Shown: one piece after another, positions 52,595 to 58,546 of the stretch | How positions within the stretch are numbered: the stretch's first letter is position 1 | Layout of the letters: each line of letters starts with the position of its first letter | Assembly: GCF_025515305.1 (NCBI RefSeq) | Contig: NZ_JAOPHT010000017.1 | Span: forward strand, 1-64,000 | Direction: 5' to 3' | From: Roseicyclus sediminis | GTDB taxonomy: Bacteria; Pseudomonadota; Alphaproteobacteria; Rhodobacterales; Rhodobacteraceae | Length of the DNA: 64,000 bases | Notes under the pieces: generated by a model | What the model saw: only the letters and a program-made list of their open reading frames with translations | Told to the model about the DNA's origin: nothing | The model's database searches: none | Made by a program: the position numbers and the translations under genes

Positions 52595-52694
52595 GCAAAA
52601 CTCGCCCGAAACGACCGGATTCGCAGCCTTCCGTCGCGGAAACCTGCCGCACAAGCGCACAGGGGAATTGCATTTGCCTGCTTCATGGGCGCAA

Positions 52695-52706
52695 ATCGTC
52701 GACGAT
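52695..52706. promoter_or_regulatory. 12-bp palindrome upstream of the transporter genes
   Basis: ATCGTCGACGAT is a perfect palindrome 25 bases upstream of the predicted GTG start of the ABC ATPase. It may be an operator. I see no clear -35/-10 pair beside it. Confidence 0.25.
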
Positions 52707-52730
52707 CAACAGGCGGGGCCCAAAACCATC

Positions 52731-53510
52731 GTGACGGAAGCGACCACCCCGGTGATCCGCATCACCGGTCTACACAAGAGCTTTGGCGACCTTCACGTCC
52801 TGCGCGGTGTCGACATGACAGCCCGCGCGGGCGACGTGGTCTCGCTCATCGGATCGTCCGGATCGGGCAAGTCGACGCTCCTGCGCTGCGCGAACCTTCT
52901 CGAGGACAGCCAGCAGGGCGAAATCCTGTTCGAGGGCGAGCCCGTGGTCTGGCGCGGCGCCGGCGCCGGGCGCCACCCCGCCGACCGCGAGCAGGTGCGG
53001 CGCATACGAACCAACCTCTCGATGGTGTTCCAGCAATTCAACCTCTGGTCCCACCTCACCGTGCTGCAGAACGTCATGGAAGCGCCCGTGACCGTCCTCG
53101 GCGAGGATCGCGCCGAGGTCGAGGACCGCGCCCGCGCCCTTCTCGACAAGGTCGGCATCGGCGACAAGTGCGAGGCCTGGCCCGCGCAGCTGTCGGGCGG
53201 CCAGCAGCAGCGCGCCGCCATTGCCCGCGCGCTCTGCATGCAGCCCCGCGCCCTTCTCTTCGACGAGCCGACCTCGGCGCTCGACCCCGAGCTCGAGCAG
53301 GAGGTGGTGCGCGTGATCCGCGGCCTCGCCGAGGAAGGGCGCACGATGATCCTCGTCACCCACGACATGCGCATGGCGCGCGACATCTCCGACCACGTCG
53401 TGTTCCTCCACGAGGGACGCGTCGAGGAAGAAGGGCCGCCCGACCAGCTCTTCGGCGCGCCGACCTCGCCGCGCCTCCGCCAGTTCCTCAGCCATGGCCA
53501 CGCGGCCTGA
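52731..53510 (+). CDS. Polar amino-acid-type ABC transporter ATPase
   Basis: This HisP/GlnQ-type ATPase drives uptake of amino acids or small amines. From GTG 52731 the 259-residue product has Walker A GSSGSGKST (41-49), Q-loop FQQFNLWSH, signature LSGGQQQRAAIARAL, Walker B LLFDEPTSALDPEL and switch His VTHDM. A TTG at 52668 would add 21 residues not found in the family. It starts a unit with a binding protein, two permeases and a gamma-glutamylamine ligase. The downstream genes suggest polyamine or related amine transport. Confidence 0.93.
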   Translation: MTEATTPVIRITGLHKSFGDLHVLRGVDMTARAGDVVSLIGSSGSGKSTLLRCANLLEDSQQGEILFEGEPVVWRGAGAGRHPADREQVRRIRTNLSMVFQQFNLWSHLTVLQNVMEAPVTVLGEDRAEVEDRARALLDKVGIGDKCEAWPAQLSGGQQQRAAIARALCMQPRALLFDEPTSALDPELEQEVVRVIRGLAEEGRTMILVTHDMRMARDISDHVVFLHEGRVEEEGPPDQLFGAPTSPRLRQFLSHGHAA

Positions 53511-53549: not shown

Positions 53550-54272
53550 ATGATGAAATACCTGATCCTCACCGCCGGACTCCTGGCGATGTCCGCGGGC
53601 GCGGCCAGCGCCCAGGACGTCGTCCGCATGGGCACCGAGGGCGCCTACCCTCCGTACAACTTCATCAACGACAACGGCGAGATCGACGGCTTCGAGCGCG
53701 TGCTCGGCGACGAGCTGTGCATGCGGGCGGGACTGACCTGCGAATGGGTCCAGAACGACTGGGATTCGATCATCCCCAACCTGACGAGCGGAAACTACGA
53801 CACGATCATCGCCGGCATGTCGATCACCGCCGAGCGTGACGAGGTCATCGACTTCACCCAGCCCTACATTCCGCCGGCCTCCTCGCTGTTCATGGCGCTG
53901 TCCGAGGATGCCGACCTCGAAGGCGGCGTGATCGCGGCGCAGACCAACACGATCCAGGCGGGCTACATCGCCGAGACGGGCGCGACGCTCATCGAGTTCG
54001 CCACGCCCGACGAGACGGTGGCCGCGGTCCGCAACGGCGAGGCCGACGCGGTCTTCGCCGATGGCGACTACCTCCTGCCGATCGCGAACGAGGACGCCGA
54101 CCTCATGATCGTGGGCGAGCCCGTCCAGCTGGGCGGCGGCGTCGGCATGGGCATGCGCGAGGGCGACGAGCGCCTCGCGGCCTTCGATGCGGCCATCACC
54201 GCGATGAAGGAAGACGGCACGCTGAACGCGCTGATCCTCGAGTGGTTCGGCGAGGAAGCCGCGACCTGGTAA
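53550..54272 (+). CDS. Periplasmic substrate-binding protein, family 3
   Basis: The 240-residue protein has a signal peptide (MMKYLILTAGLLAMSAGAASA). The mature part is the family 3 fold: VRMGTEGAYPPYNFINDNGEIDGFERVLGDELCMRAGLTCEWVQNDWDSIIPNLTSGNYDTIIAGMSITAERDEVIDFTQPYIPP. Trp-Asp-Ser-Ile-Ile-Pro and the MSIT...R...DFT pattern match lysine/arginine/ornithine-type binding proteins. The two Cys could form a disulfide. Start may be 53550 or the next ATG at 53553. It is 39 bases from the ATPase. Confidence 0.93.
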   Translation: MMKYLILTAGLLAMSAGAASAQDVVRMGTEGAYPPYNFINDNGEIDGFERVLGDELCMRAGLTCEWVQNDWDSIIPNLTSGNYDTIIAGMSITAERDEVIDFTQPYIPPASSLFMALSEDADLEGGVIAAQTNTIQAGYIAETGATLIEFATPDETVAAVRNGEADAVFADGDYLLPIANEDADLMIVGEPVQLGGGVGMGMREGDERLAAFDAAITAMKEDGTLNALILEWFGEEAATW

Positions 54273-54310
54273 GCCTTCCGGGCCGGGGGCGCACAACCGC
54301 GCCTCCGGCC

Positions 54311-54333
54311 CTTCATCTTTCCGGAAATACGCA
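54311..54333. repeat. Short intergenic repeat, copy 2
   Basis: CTTCATCTTTCCGGAAATAC followed by GCAA lies between the binding protein and first permease genes. Copy 1 is at 47035-47057. Here the four-base middle is CCGG, giving a TTTCCGGAAA palindrome instead of CTCC. Confidence 0.65.
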
Positions 54334-54360
54334 AGATCCGCCGCCGGCCAAAGGGCCCAG

Positions 54361-55242
54361 ATGTTCGAGTTCTGCACCGACCCCGCCACGCTCGACACCC
54401 TCCGCTGGTTCAGCTGCTACCTGACCAACGGCGCGCATTTCCTGTTCTACCAGTCCTTCCTCGTGGTCTTCGCGCTTCTGGCCGTGACCGCGCCCGCGGC
54501 GCTGGCCTTCGGGTTCGCCGCCGCCGCCGCCTCGCGGTCGCAGATCCTGCCGCTCTCGTGGCTCGGCAAGACCTACACCGCCATGGTCCGCGGCGTGCCG
54601 GACATCGTCTTCTTCCTGTTCTTCGTGCTGGTCCTCGACCAGGGCATCGAATTCCTGCGCCACTCCGTCGTGTGCCCCGACTGGACCGACCCGATCCGGC
54701 AGGGCGCGAACTTCCTCGTCTGCCCCGACGCGCGCACGCCGCAATCCTCGGCGCCGCAATGGGTCCACGAGACCTATGGCTTCGCGCTGGCCGTGTTCAC
54801 CTATGCCATCGTCTTCGGCGCCTTCTGCGGCAATGTCCTCTTCGGCGCGATGCGCGCCGTCCCCCGCGCGCAGCTCGAGACAGGGGAAGCCTACGGCATG
54901 TCGCGCCGCCAGGTCTTCTGGCGCATCCTCGTGCCGCAGATGTGGATCTACGCCCTGCCGGGCCTATCCAACATCTGGATGATCCTGATCAAGGCCACGC
55001 CGCTGCTGTTCCTGCTGGGGATCGAGGACATCGTCTACTGGGCGCGCGAGCTCGGCGGCAGCCGCACGTCGGCCTACCAGTACCCCCACCCCGACTGGCG
55101 CTTCTGGTACTTCTTCGGCCTGCTCGTCTTCTACCTCGCCTTCACGCGCGTCTCCGAGATCGTGCTCGCGCGGCTGACGGCCCGCCTCAGCCACGGGCAG
55201 GCGACGGCGGCGGGCGAAGACCTCCGGAAGGCCGCAGCATGA
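54361..55242 (+). CDS. ABC transporter permease 1 (HisQ-like)
   Basis: The 293-residue inner-membrane permease has several helices and the EAA motif ETGEAYGMSRRQVFWRILVPQMWIYALPGLSN that contacts the ATPase. It is longer than most HisQ proteins. Between two helices there is an extra loop of about 45 residues (FLRHSVVCPDWTDPIRQG, FLVCPDARTPQSSAPQW) with two Cys, probably periplasmic. It follows the binding protein gene by 88 bases, which contain a short repeat, and precedes the tandem palindromes. Confidence 0.9.
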   Translation: MFEFCTDPATLDTLRWFSCYLTNGAHFLFYQSFLVVFALLAVTAPAALAFGFAAAAASRSQILPLSWLGKTYTAMVRGVPDIVFFLFFVLVLDQGIEFLRHSVVCPDWTDPIRQGANFLVCPDARTPQSSAPQWVHETYGFALAVFTYAIVFGAFCGNVLFGAMRAVPRAQLETGEAYGMSRRQVFWRILVPQMWIYALPGLSNIWMILIKATPLLFLLGIEDIVYWARELGGSRTSAYQYPHPDWRFWYFFGLLVFYLAFTRVSEIVLARLTARLSHGQATAAGEDLRKAAA

Positions 55243-55265
55243 GAACCCGCCGTACCCCGGCCGCC

Positions 55266-55353
55266 GCGTCTTTTGGAAAAGACGCACCAGAGCCTTGCAA
55301 GGCTCTGGCCACGCCCTTGCAAGGGCGTCGCAAATCCCTTGCAAGGGATTTGC
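55266..55353. repeat. Four tandem palindromes between the permease genes
   Basis: Four different inverted repeats lie head to tail: 55266-55285 (GCGTCTTTT-GG-AAAAGACGC), 55287-55308 (11-bp arms, CCAGAGCCTTG/CAAGGCTCTGG), 55311-55328 (ACGCCCTTG/CAAGGGCGT) and 55330-55353 (12-bp arms, GCAAATCCCTTG/CAAGGGATTTGC). The last three share the core CCTTGCAAGG but have different outer arms. No T-tract follows. Confidence 0.9.
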
Positions 55354-55372
55354 CCGCTGCCGGTGACCGCCC

Positions 55373-56212
55373 ATGACCTGCGCCGAGGCGTTCCAGGCTT
55401 ATGCGTTCCGCGCTCTGGGGTTTGGCGAACGGCTGCTGCCGCGCGCGGACATCGGCGTCTGCGAGCAGATCGTGCTGATCGGCTCGGGCATGATCTGGAA
55501 CGTCTATTTCGCGGCTCTCGCGCTGTCGCTGGGGTTCTTCTGCGCCGTGGGCCTTGCGCTGGCCAAGAACTCCCGCACATGGCTCATCCGCAAGCCCGCG
55601 GAATGGTTCATCTTCGTCTTCCGGGGCTCACCGCTCTTCATCCAGTTCTTCATGGCGTACGAGGCCTTCGTGCTCCTGCCGCGCCTCGGCTTCGAGTTCA
55701 CTTTCCTCGGCATCGCCATCGAGGCCGAGACGCGCTGGCTCGCGCGGGCCTGGCTCGGGGCGCTGATCGTGCTCTGGCTCAACACCTCGGCCTATTCGGC
55801 CGAGATCTTCTACGGCGCGCTGCGTGCCGTGCCGAAGGGCGATCTGGAGGCCGCCGACGCCTACGGTCTGACCGGCTGGAAGAAATTCCGCCGCGTGGTA
55901 TTCCCCACCACGATGCGGCTTGCCTGGCCGGCCTACACCAACGAGGCGATCTTCCTGTTCCACTCCACCGCGCTCGTCTTCTTCTCGTCCTTCCCCGCCT
56001 TCCAGCAGATGGGCGACGCGCTCTACTACGCCAACTACTTCGCCGACCGCACCTTCAACCCCTTCATACCCTATCCCATCGTGGCGGTGTACTTCGTGCT
56101 CTTCACGCTGCTGATCATCGCGCTCTTCGGTGCGATCAACAAACGCCTCAACCGCCACCTGCCGCAGGAGGCGCGCCCGCGCCTGCGCTACCGCCCGACG
56201 CTGATCCGATGA
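55373..56212 (+). CDS. ABC transporter permease 2 (HisM-like)
   Basis: The 279-residue membrane protein has about five helices, FRGSPLFIQFFMAYE (the conserved family segment) and the EAA motif EAADAYGLTGWKKFRRVVFPTTMRLAWPAYTNE. It pairs with permease 1. Its stop overlaps the start of the ligase gene as ATGA, which couples uptake with metabolism of the substrate. Confidence 0.93.
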   Translation: MTCAEAFQAYAFRALGFGERLLPRADIGVCEQIVLIGSGMIWNVYFAALALSLGFFCAVGLALAKNSRTWLIRKPAEWFIFVFRGSPLFIQFFMAYEAFVLLPRLGFEFTFLGIAIEAETRWLARAWLGALIVLWLNTSAYSAEIFYGALRAVPKGDLEAADAYGLTGWKKFRRVVFPTTMRLAWPAYTNEAIFLFHSTALVFFSSFPAFQQMGDALYYANYFADRTFNPFIPYPIVAVYFVLFTLLIIALFGAINKRLNRHLPQEARPRLRYRPTLIR

Positions 56213-57540
56213 ACTGGCTCGACGACCACCCCGAGATCGCCTCGATCCGCACCGTCGCGGCCGACCTCAACGGCCAGCCGCGCGGCAAGCGGATCGCGCG
56301 GCGCTATGCCGACAAGGCGCTGAGCGAGGGGACGCGGTTTCCCTACTCGGTCATGAACCTCGACATCTGGGGCGAGGACATCGACGACAGCCCGCTTGTG
56401 TTCCGGGCGGGCGACCCCGACGGCGTCCTTCTGCCCACCGAGCGCGGGTTTCTTCCCGTGCCGTGGCTCGAGAGCCCCACCGCGCTGCTGCCGATCTGGA
56501 TGTTCCACGAGGACGGTCGGCCCTATGACGGCGACCCGCGCCAGGCGCTCGCCCGCGTGGTGGAGCGGTATACCGCCCTCGGCCTGACGCCGGTGGTGGC
56601 GACCGAGATGGAGTTCTACCTCATCGACGACCGGGGCCGTGAACTGCGCGTTCCTCGCTCGCCCCGCTCGGGCAAGCGTCGCCACCAGGCCGAGATCCTC
56701 GCGCTGCGGCAACTCGATGCCTGGGACGGGTTCTTCACCCGGCTCTACGGCGCCTGCGAGGCGATGGACATTCCCGCCGACACCACGATCTCCGAGGCCG
56801 GGCCGGGGCAGTTCGAGATCAACCTGATGCATCAGCCCGACGCGCTGAAGGCCGCCGACGACGCGTGGTTCTTCAAGCTCCTGGTGCAGGGCCTCGCCCG
56901 CGAGTTCGGTGTCGCCGCGAGCTTCATGGCCAAGCCCTATCCCGACTACGCCGGGTCCGGCCTGCACGCGCATTTCTCGATCCTCGACGCCGATGGCCGG
57001 AACATCTTCGACGAACGGCACGCGCGCGGCGCCGAGCGTCTGGGTCATGCGATCGCGGGCTGTCTCGCGGCCATGCCCGGCTCGATGCTGGTCTTCGCGC
57101 CACACGCCACGAGCTACGACCGCCTCGTGCCGGGGGCGCACGCGCCGACCGGGATAGCCTGGGCGCACGAGAACCGCACGGCGGCGCTGCGCGTGCCCGC
57201 GGGCGGGCCTGCCGCGCGCCGGATCGAGCATCGCGTCGCGGGCGGCGACATCAACCCGTATCTCTTCCTCGCCGCCATCCTCGGCGCGGCGCTGAACGGG
57301 ATAGAGGACGAAGCGGAGCCGCCGCCGCCGATCTCCGGCAATGCCTACAGCCAGGACCTGCCGCAATTGCCCGCCACGTGGGACCGCGCCATCGACGCCT
57401 TCGCGGCGAGCCCGGAGATGGCCCGCATCTTCCCGCAGACGCTGATCGACAACTTCCTCGCCACCAAGCGGCAGGAGCTTCACTACATGGCGGAGTTGTC
57501 GGAAGACGAGCGCACGCAGCTCTATCTCGACACGGTCTGA
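56209..57540 (+). CDS. Glutamine synthetase-like gamma-glutamylamine ligase, copy 1 (PuuA-like)
   Basis: PuuA-type enzymes join glutamate to putrescine or other amines using ATP. The 443-residue product lacks the typical GlnA start. It has the GS catalytic segments: VATEMEFYLIDD, ISEAGPGQFEINL, GSGLHAHFSI, AHENRTAALRVP and IEHRVAGGDINPYL. These give the metal Glu residues, the ATP Arg and the loop with Asn. It starts in a 4-base overlap with permease 2. The context (transporter, amidotransferase, FAD oxidase nearby) favours an amine substrate over ammonia. Confidence 0.88.
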   Translation: MNWLDDHPEIASIRTVAADLNGQPRGKRIARRYADKALSEGTRFPYSVMNLDIWGEDIDDSPLVFRAGDPDGVLLPTERGFLPVPWLESPTALLPIWMFHEDGRPYDGDPRQALARVVERYTALGLTPVVATEMEFYLIDDRGRELRVPRSPRSGKRRHQAEILALRQLDAWDGFFTRLYGACEAMDIPADTTISEAGPGQFEINLMHQPDALKAADDAWFFKLLVQGLAREFGVAASFMAKPYPDYAGSGLHAHFSILDADGRNIFDERHARGAERLGHAIAGCLAAMPGSMLVFAPHATSYDRLVPGAHAPTGIAWAHENRTAALRVPAGGPAARRIEHRVAGGDINPYLFLAAILGAALNGIEDEAEPPPPISGNAYSQDLPQLPATWDRAIDAFAASPEMARIFPQTLIDNFLATKRQELHYMAELSEDERTQLYLDTV

Positions 57541-57547
57541 CGGAAGG

Positions 57548-58546
<999 letters not shown>

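Follow-up and report, generated by a model that had tools for sequence, protein, structure and literature searches.

Between two ABC permease genes of Roseicyclus sediminis lie four tandem palindromes, one member of a family of similar arrays dispersed through the genomes of this and related Rhodobacteraceae. With moderate confidence, we regard these arrays as a multi-hairpin module of mRNA 3' ends that spreads by a route other than that of the RAYT transposases and is kept by selection for base pairing. The stretch analysed here comprises the first 64,000 nucleotides of contig NZ_JAOPHT010000017.1 (hereafter the window).

Both permease genes match Pfam PF00528 (BPD_transp_1) and lie on the plus strand, at 54361-55242 (E 2e-14) and 55373-56212 (E 2e-16), in the same gene cluster as an ABC ATPase (52668-53510, plus strand, PF00005, E 1.8e-32) and a family 3 solute-binding protein (53550-54272, plus strand, PF00497, E 5.4e-35). 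The 130-nt spacer that separates them (55243-55372) holds an unstranded array at 55266-55353, which begins 23 nt after the end of the upstream stop codon and ends 19 nt before the downstream start. Its four units have centres exactly 22 bp apart. The first palindrome (55266-55285) is near-perfect, with 9-bp arms GCGTCTTTT and AAAAGACGC around an unpaired central GG, and the other three, at 55287-55308 (22 bp), 55311-55328 (18 bp) and 55330-55353 (24 bp), are perfect and share the core CCTTGCAAGG. The sequence-only reading, which had described four tandem palindromes of 20, 22, 18 and 24 bp in this spacer, three of them with a common core, is confirmed in this respect: CCTTGCAAGG occurs three times in the window, always inside the array, against 0.05 expected and never three times in 100 dinucleotide shuffles.

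RNA of the spacer (55240-55376) is predicted to fold into four hairpins at -69.3 kcal/mol (z -6.35), and the DNA single strand at 55262-55357 to fold at -35.3 kcal/mol (z -7.25). Terminator-like sites, defined as a GC-rich hairpin with a T run, were searched for in the window and none was found on the sense strand of the array, which is thus not a classical intrinsic terminator; one minus-strand match lies in the array (55309-55286), and the region 54200-57700 contains three such sites against 1.8 expected. A described Rfam RNA family was also rejected as a candidate, with no match at E up to 1 in positions 54900-55700 and none at gathering scores for 13 array loci. Three long ORFs cross the array (54964-55374 and 55131-55580 on the minus strand, 55273-57540 on the plus strand), within which peptides such as PCKAL, PLQG or SLARL recur; these resemble spurious frames that an automatic annotation might mistake for genes.

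The core CCTTGCAAGG is present at 21 places in the R. sediminis genome, and 14 further stretches bearing it comprised 11 arrays, one lone palindrome within coding sequence and two chance copies. Together with two arrays from an 864-kb sample, one other and that of the window, the collection reached 15 arrays with 49 palindromes, two to four per array, whose arms differ from one array to another. Neighbouring centres are 22 bp apart in 20 cases, 23 bp in 11, and 24, 38 and 42 bp once each, and 39 of the 49 palindromes have GC at the two central positions, the rest having CG, TC, GG, GA or CC. Every TTNNAA-centred palindrome with at least eight paired bases per arm in the 864 kb lies within an array of three or four; those with arms of at least nine numbered 4, 6 and 8, against 0 or 1 in three second-order Markov sequences per stretch. 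When clusters were searched for in the same 864 kb irrespective of core, six of the seven found had TTNNAA centres in all units, and the Markov controls gave 0 to 2 clusters. In alignment A1 of these arrays, chosen by exact palindromy with TT..AA centres and hence biased in its pairing, its rarity of G-U pairs and its TT..AA invariance, 97.3% of 512 cells are paired (at most 57.5% with slid structures), 170 cells are changed on both sides (46.9 in shuffles, sd 5.7) and three hold G-U pairs. Given this choice, a better test of covariation was sought in orthologous arrays.

Gene neighbourhoods were established with a home-made caller using codon-position GC. For 14 of the 15 R. sediminis arrays, a called stop codon is found no more than 25 nt upstream, a proximity to stops shared by 8.5% of points drawn at random from intergenic DNA (16.8% for a limit of 60 nt). 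Seven of the arrays separate convergent genes, six codirectional and one divergent genes, and one is inside a weak ORF; among the 422 gaps of at least 40 nt in this genome, 16% are convergent and 22% divergent. Placement was also recorded in other genomes, with one locus taken from each of 32; locus L167 gave no array and was dropped. Of the remaining 31 arrays, 27 are within 60 nt of a stop, with 13 convergent, 15 codirectional, two divergent and one unclassified, and a strict scan found a canonical terminator near one of the 31 loci. In two further relatives, G684 and G685, 26 of 27 arrays are found no further than 25 nt past a stop, two of them overlapping the end of the gene as called. Of the 27, 15 are convergent, 11 codirectional, none divergent and one at a contig edge. 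In genome G311, 19 of 23 loci, one array being counted twice, are within 60 nt of a stop.

The same two relatives, a Roseicyclus MAG (G684, the genome of locus L021) and Rhodobacterales bacterium HKCCSP123 (G685, the genome of locus L024), provided the orthologous arrays: 15 at matching sites, drawn from 21 and 20 loci examined, respectively. A single species served to define the palindromes, and the main counts, made in the forward direction, omit the outermost pair of each arm. Between the two species, 31 of 1108 arm sites have changed (2.8%), against 18 of 55 linker sites (33%), 232 of 1145 non-coding flank sites (20%) and 7.1, 5.4 and 22.2% of codon positions 1, 2 and 3; the arms of these 15 arrays thus evolve about seven times more slowly than the non-coding flanks. 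Among 554 pairs, 11 have changed on both sides and are still complementary, where the null mean is 0.14 and at most 3 were reached in 20,000, and nine have changed on one side (five A-C, one G-U and three other). With the outermost pairs included, the changes are 13 two-sided complementary, one two-sided non-complementary and 17 one-sided, a count whose reverse-direction totals take in one non-orthologous comparison (L378 to L358 at 10299). When the L021 array is followed into L024, two of its 45 pairs show compensating changes and none is altered on one side; taking L024 as the reference, one of 46 pairs is altered on one side. The earlier proposal that the hairpins are separately maintained, each arm change being matched on the other side, is therefore borne out. 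This slow change of the arms, together with the two-sided complementary changes, indicates from sequence comparison that purifying selection keeps their pairing. Homogenisation or gene conversion within a genome is excluded as an explanation in G684 and G685, since arrays of one genome are unlike each other while orthologs agree.

Selected pairing, nearness to stops, convergent sites and the lack of a U-tract fit a 3'-end barrier or a non-canonical terminator that could act on both strands, and we infer that RNA is the acting form of the arrays. Transcribed from either strand, an array would fold a few nucleotides past the stop codon into two to four short stable hairpins, with stems of about 8-12 bp and a four-base loop. 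These hairpins may mark and protect the mRNA 3' end as a barrier to 3'-5' exonucleases, perhaps combined with pausing or Rho-dependent termination downstream; between convergent genes, one array would serve both directions. The interpretation offered by the sequence-only reading is thus supported in part: a role at RNA ends, through stalling of exonucleases or termination, would fit the placement right after stops. Among the observations that count against a 3'-end module of this kind are the missing intrinsic terminator on the sense strand of the window array and the absence of a model match at E 0.01 in the close relative G004 (see below). G-U pairs, too, are scarce, both in A1 (3 of 512 cells, with the bias mentioned above) and among the one-sided ortholog changes (1 of 9); selection on the RNA of one strand should allow more of them, so use of both strands or a constraint at the DNA level is needed. 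In addition, the 22-23 bp pitch is tighter than the hairpin lengths, and plain RNA hairpins do not require it.

Relatives were searched with a hairpin-pair model, R1 (two neighbouring hairpins, 32 pairs), built from A1. The model finds its own training arrays by construction and covers the TT..AA dialect only, and its match numbers per genome are lower bounds; in R. sediminis it added a candidate on contig C9 (E 1.6e-6) and the coding palindrome mentioned above, which lies on C23. At E 1e-6, 46 of 296 Rhodobacteraceae genomes were positive, R. sediminis included. A first sample at E 0.01 had 7 positives out of 41, among them one of four congeners, and a class-wide sample had 2 out of 386, both of Rhodobacteraceae. 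Related genomes thus do hold such palindrome clusters, as the earlier reading had proposed to check, and in G684 and G685 their arms covary. Several variants were observed. In G051, G043 and G312, quadruple arrays (L225, L196 and L188) have centres in the mirror order CG-GC-GC-CG, with outer TTCGAA and inner TTGCAA, and G051 carries the same quartet of units twice, at separate places (L225, L226). In doublets of G024 (L166, L171, L176) the second centre is the reverse complement of the first (CTTGCAAAG, followed by CTTTGCAAG), so that the hairpins look like inverted copies of each other, a BIME-like arrangement.

Two genomes, G311 and G298, have at least 150 scored matches each, both strands counted, and among the matches listed 42 places of G311 have one and the same score; no R1 match was found in one other genome of the G311 genus, which is 6% contaminated. 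The G311 copies (loci L239-L253 and L259-L281) are elements of about 200 bp, present in dozens, with two palindrome doublets and decayed inverted ends of about 27 bp. In the 24 copies compared, the palindromes are uniform and the ends decayed; identical scores and motifs in units 1, 3 and 4 had helped to choose these copies, so that only unit 2 is unselected. The ends do not covary (score 9.7 within a copy, 9.6 between copies), and no target-site duplication was seen by eye. A gene between the doublets, as in an autonomous element, was not evident by eye among the matches listed for G311 and G298. The G311 element resembles an array that has multiplied and become homogenised in part, and gene conversion among its copies is possible. 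Carriage on plasmids or phages found no supporting match: one G311 element was searched against plasmids and phages, a 3-kb G311 stretch (for near matches) and the L021 and L225 quadruple arrays against plasmids, and one 20-base unit against viral contigs.

The history of individual sites was followed in G004, the closest relative by permease identity, where the hairpin-pair model has no match at E 0.01; the module is therefore dispensable. Of 11 R. sediminis array sites looked up there, eight have both flanks close together, one has them about 280 nt and one 1 kb apart, and one has a single flank; nine of the G004 stretches contain no palindrome with arms of at least eight, and two hold one with arms of seven. 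For five R. sediminis arrays, the corresponding site among the G684 and G685 loci examined also bears an array; two of these five are clearly homologous (no more than 0.6% of 310 other pairs score as high), one is perhaps homologous and two are not. As the two clearly homologous arrays match the same sites of G684, which is more distant than G004, some arrays are old and were probably lost from G004, and the reading of the G004 sites as pre-insertion sites is weakened.

These distributions bear on the possibility that the arrays are purely selfish, non-autonomous repeats of a MITE- or REPIN-like kind, whose hairpins are needed only for their own copying and which survive after stops because they do little harm there. 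Their patchy presence across the family and among the congeners, the abundance in G311 and G298 beside none in the other genome of the G311 genus, the G311 element with its decayed terminal inverted repeats and doublets, and the G004 sites without an array would all be expected of such repeats. However, change in the orthologous arrays of G684 and G685 is about sevenfold slower than in the adjoining non-coding sequence and includes compensated pairs, and two R. sediminis arrays are homologous to those at the same sites of G684; dead selfish copies would drift. We consider this explanation possible, though clearly less probable than a selected mRNA 3'-end module, in which the family would multiply in some genomes by a non-RAYT route and the multiplied arrays would then be kept by selection for base pairing, with loss possible.

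Elements of the REP, BIME and REPIN type, of which REP elements often lie 3' of genes, are likewise dispersed, multi-copy, clustered extragenic palindromes with palindromy kept; the arrays differ from them in arms that vary strongly between copies of one genome and in reaching four or more units at a fixed pitch of 22-23 bp. A REP-type transposase had been suggested as acting on the palindromes, and transposases linked to such repeats were looked for. PF01797 (RAYT, the IS200/IS605-like tyrosine transposase) is absent from R. sediminis and from 44 of the 46 array-bearing genomes, the two exceptions being G111 and G186; it was found in 2 of 23 others (G011, G019) and 5 of 14 control genomes. 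The tag GTAG adjoins none of the 49 R. sediminis palindromes (1.1 expected) and CGTC one (5.7 expected). A REP/RAYT system is thereby ruled out, though the arrays resemble REP elements and may work like them. The REP of the malE-malF intercistronic region in Escherichia coli and other hairpins stabilise RNA. It, too, comprises palindromes between genes of one ABC-transporter operon and, like it, the present array could protect upstream mRNA, but it belongs to another sequence family, and the array described here lies between the two permease genes. MITEs and the alphaproteobacterial intergenic mosaic element RIME are also small, dispersed, non-coding elements with palindromes, and the G311 copies have inverted ends, whereas by eye the R. 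sediminis arrays show neither terminal repeats nor target duplications.

In PMC2817692, REP-type palindromes are described as short and extragenic, with palindromy preserved despite sequence change, and PMC3116915 presents REP doublets as the replicative unit. Hairpin clusters without a U-tract were proposed as terminators and predicted in 13 genomes (Gupta and Pal 2021, PMC8355165); their hairpins are less than 15 bases apart and mostly within 80 bases of the stop, poly-U not being required. The arrays agree with these distances (spacing below 15 bases, stop codon within 80), and differ as a dispersed family with a core conserved per genome, a regular pitch and palindromy on both strands, for which termination is only proposed here. 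No description of arrays of this kind was found in a full-text search of open papers, a corpus mostly outside subscription journals. A passage of PMC3832669 mentions the palindrome AGCCTTGCAAGGCT for the Paracoccus plasmid pMARC4, and a term search in two palindrome surveys (PMC3733652 and PMC1590033) did not find Rhodobacter named.

The pitch of the arrays calls for separate consideration. It is 22-23 bp with a standard deviation of 0.3-0.8 in three genomes (2.8 in R. sediminis, where one pair is 38 apart), and half-length sums vary more than the pitch, by 0.9-1.6, with gaps that compensate (r -0.54 to -0.94, a correlation that partly follows from the definition of the gap). Clusters built on other cores, GCCGGC among them, occur in the congeners G002 (eight in 400 kb) and G001 (four in 200 kb), seven and two of them, respectively, at pitch 22-23; G004 has none in 200 kb, and Markov controls of congener stretches gave 0 or 1. 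At the site of the R. sediminis array C11:80763, G002 carries three tandem palindromes, unrelated in sequence and with a pitch of 23. The tandem palindromes of these congeners, at L298 (G002) and in stretches of L303-L332 (G002, G001), have cores GCCGGC, CTCGAG and CGCGCG and arms such as CGGAAAA at 22-23 bp, one of them standing at an R. sediminis array site. Conceivably, if only tentatively, the arrays are half of a two-part system, in which a clade-specific trans-acting factor recognises tandem hairpins set at the fixed two-turn pitch of 22-23 bp, carries them to gene ends and maintains them with lineage-specific core words (TTNNAA, GCCGGC and others), and the arrays vanish upon loss of the factor, as may have happened in G004.

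A dimeric protein, whether a regulator or a nucleoid or chromosome-organising factor, might instead bind the palindromes as double-stranded DNA sites two helical turns apart, a target also raised by the sequence-only reading. The narrow pitch with its compensating gaps, the strand symmetry and the TTNNAA centres in all units of six of the seven core-blind clusters agree with such sites, but the arms differ between arrays of one genome, which makes a sequence-specific protein unlikely; moreover, a centre of GG, CC, GA or TC breaks dyad symmetry, and the congeners use other cores at the same pitch. We regard this explanation as improbable. Still less credit is due to neutral palindrome correction, whereby hairpin-templated repair at the replication fork would perfect imperfect palindromes devoid of function. 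Two-sided changes are indeed about as common as one-sided ones (11 and 9 of 554, or 13 and 17 with the outermost pairs), and the positions free to vary are those at the centre, for which a hairpin offers no template; yet under correction alone the arms would diverge almost neutrally, against the observed 2.8% versus 20-22%, and the placement after stops would be left unexplained.

At the permease junction itself, 72 of 80 relatives have the two genes overlapping or directly adjoining (gap -4 to +1), and the overlap is retained in the congeners G001, G002 and G003. Gaps of 46-148 nt occur at eight loci (L019, L028, L030, L037, L038, L039, L067 and L085), including the 46-nt spacer of G004 (L019), which has no array. 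The spacers of L028 and L037 contain other, imperfect palindromes without a model match. A transporter-specific switch setting the ratio of the two permease subunits, as first suggested for this array, is very improbable: the array does lie between permease genes where those of relatives overlap, and R1 finds palindromes at this junction also in L030, L067 and L085, but most relatives do without any spacer and the same kind of array follows many other genes. Under the preferred reading of a selected 3'-end module, the window array would have entered a junction whose ancestral 4-bp overlap was broken; it would probably protect the portion of the transcript before it, which encodes the ATPase, the binding protein and the first permease, and probably lower or uncouple expression of the second permease.

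The permease spacer thus warns against reading such an array as a switch specific to the transporter, a role that is unlikely. More broadly, the arrays amount to a Rhodobacteraceae equivalent of REP elements that does without the REP transposase; their pairing is under tighter conservation than second codon positions, while the sequence is specific to each array. With these arrays, an old question can be put to the test: do dispersed palindromes act selfishly, or do they serve the ends of mRNAs?
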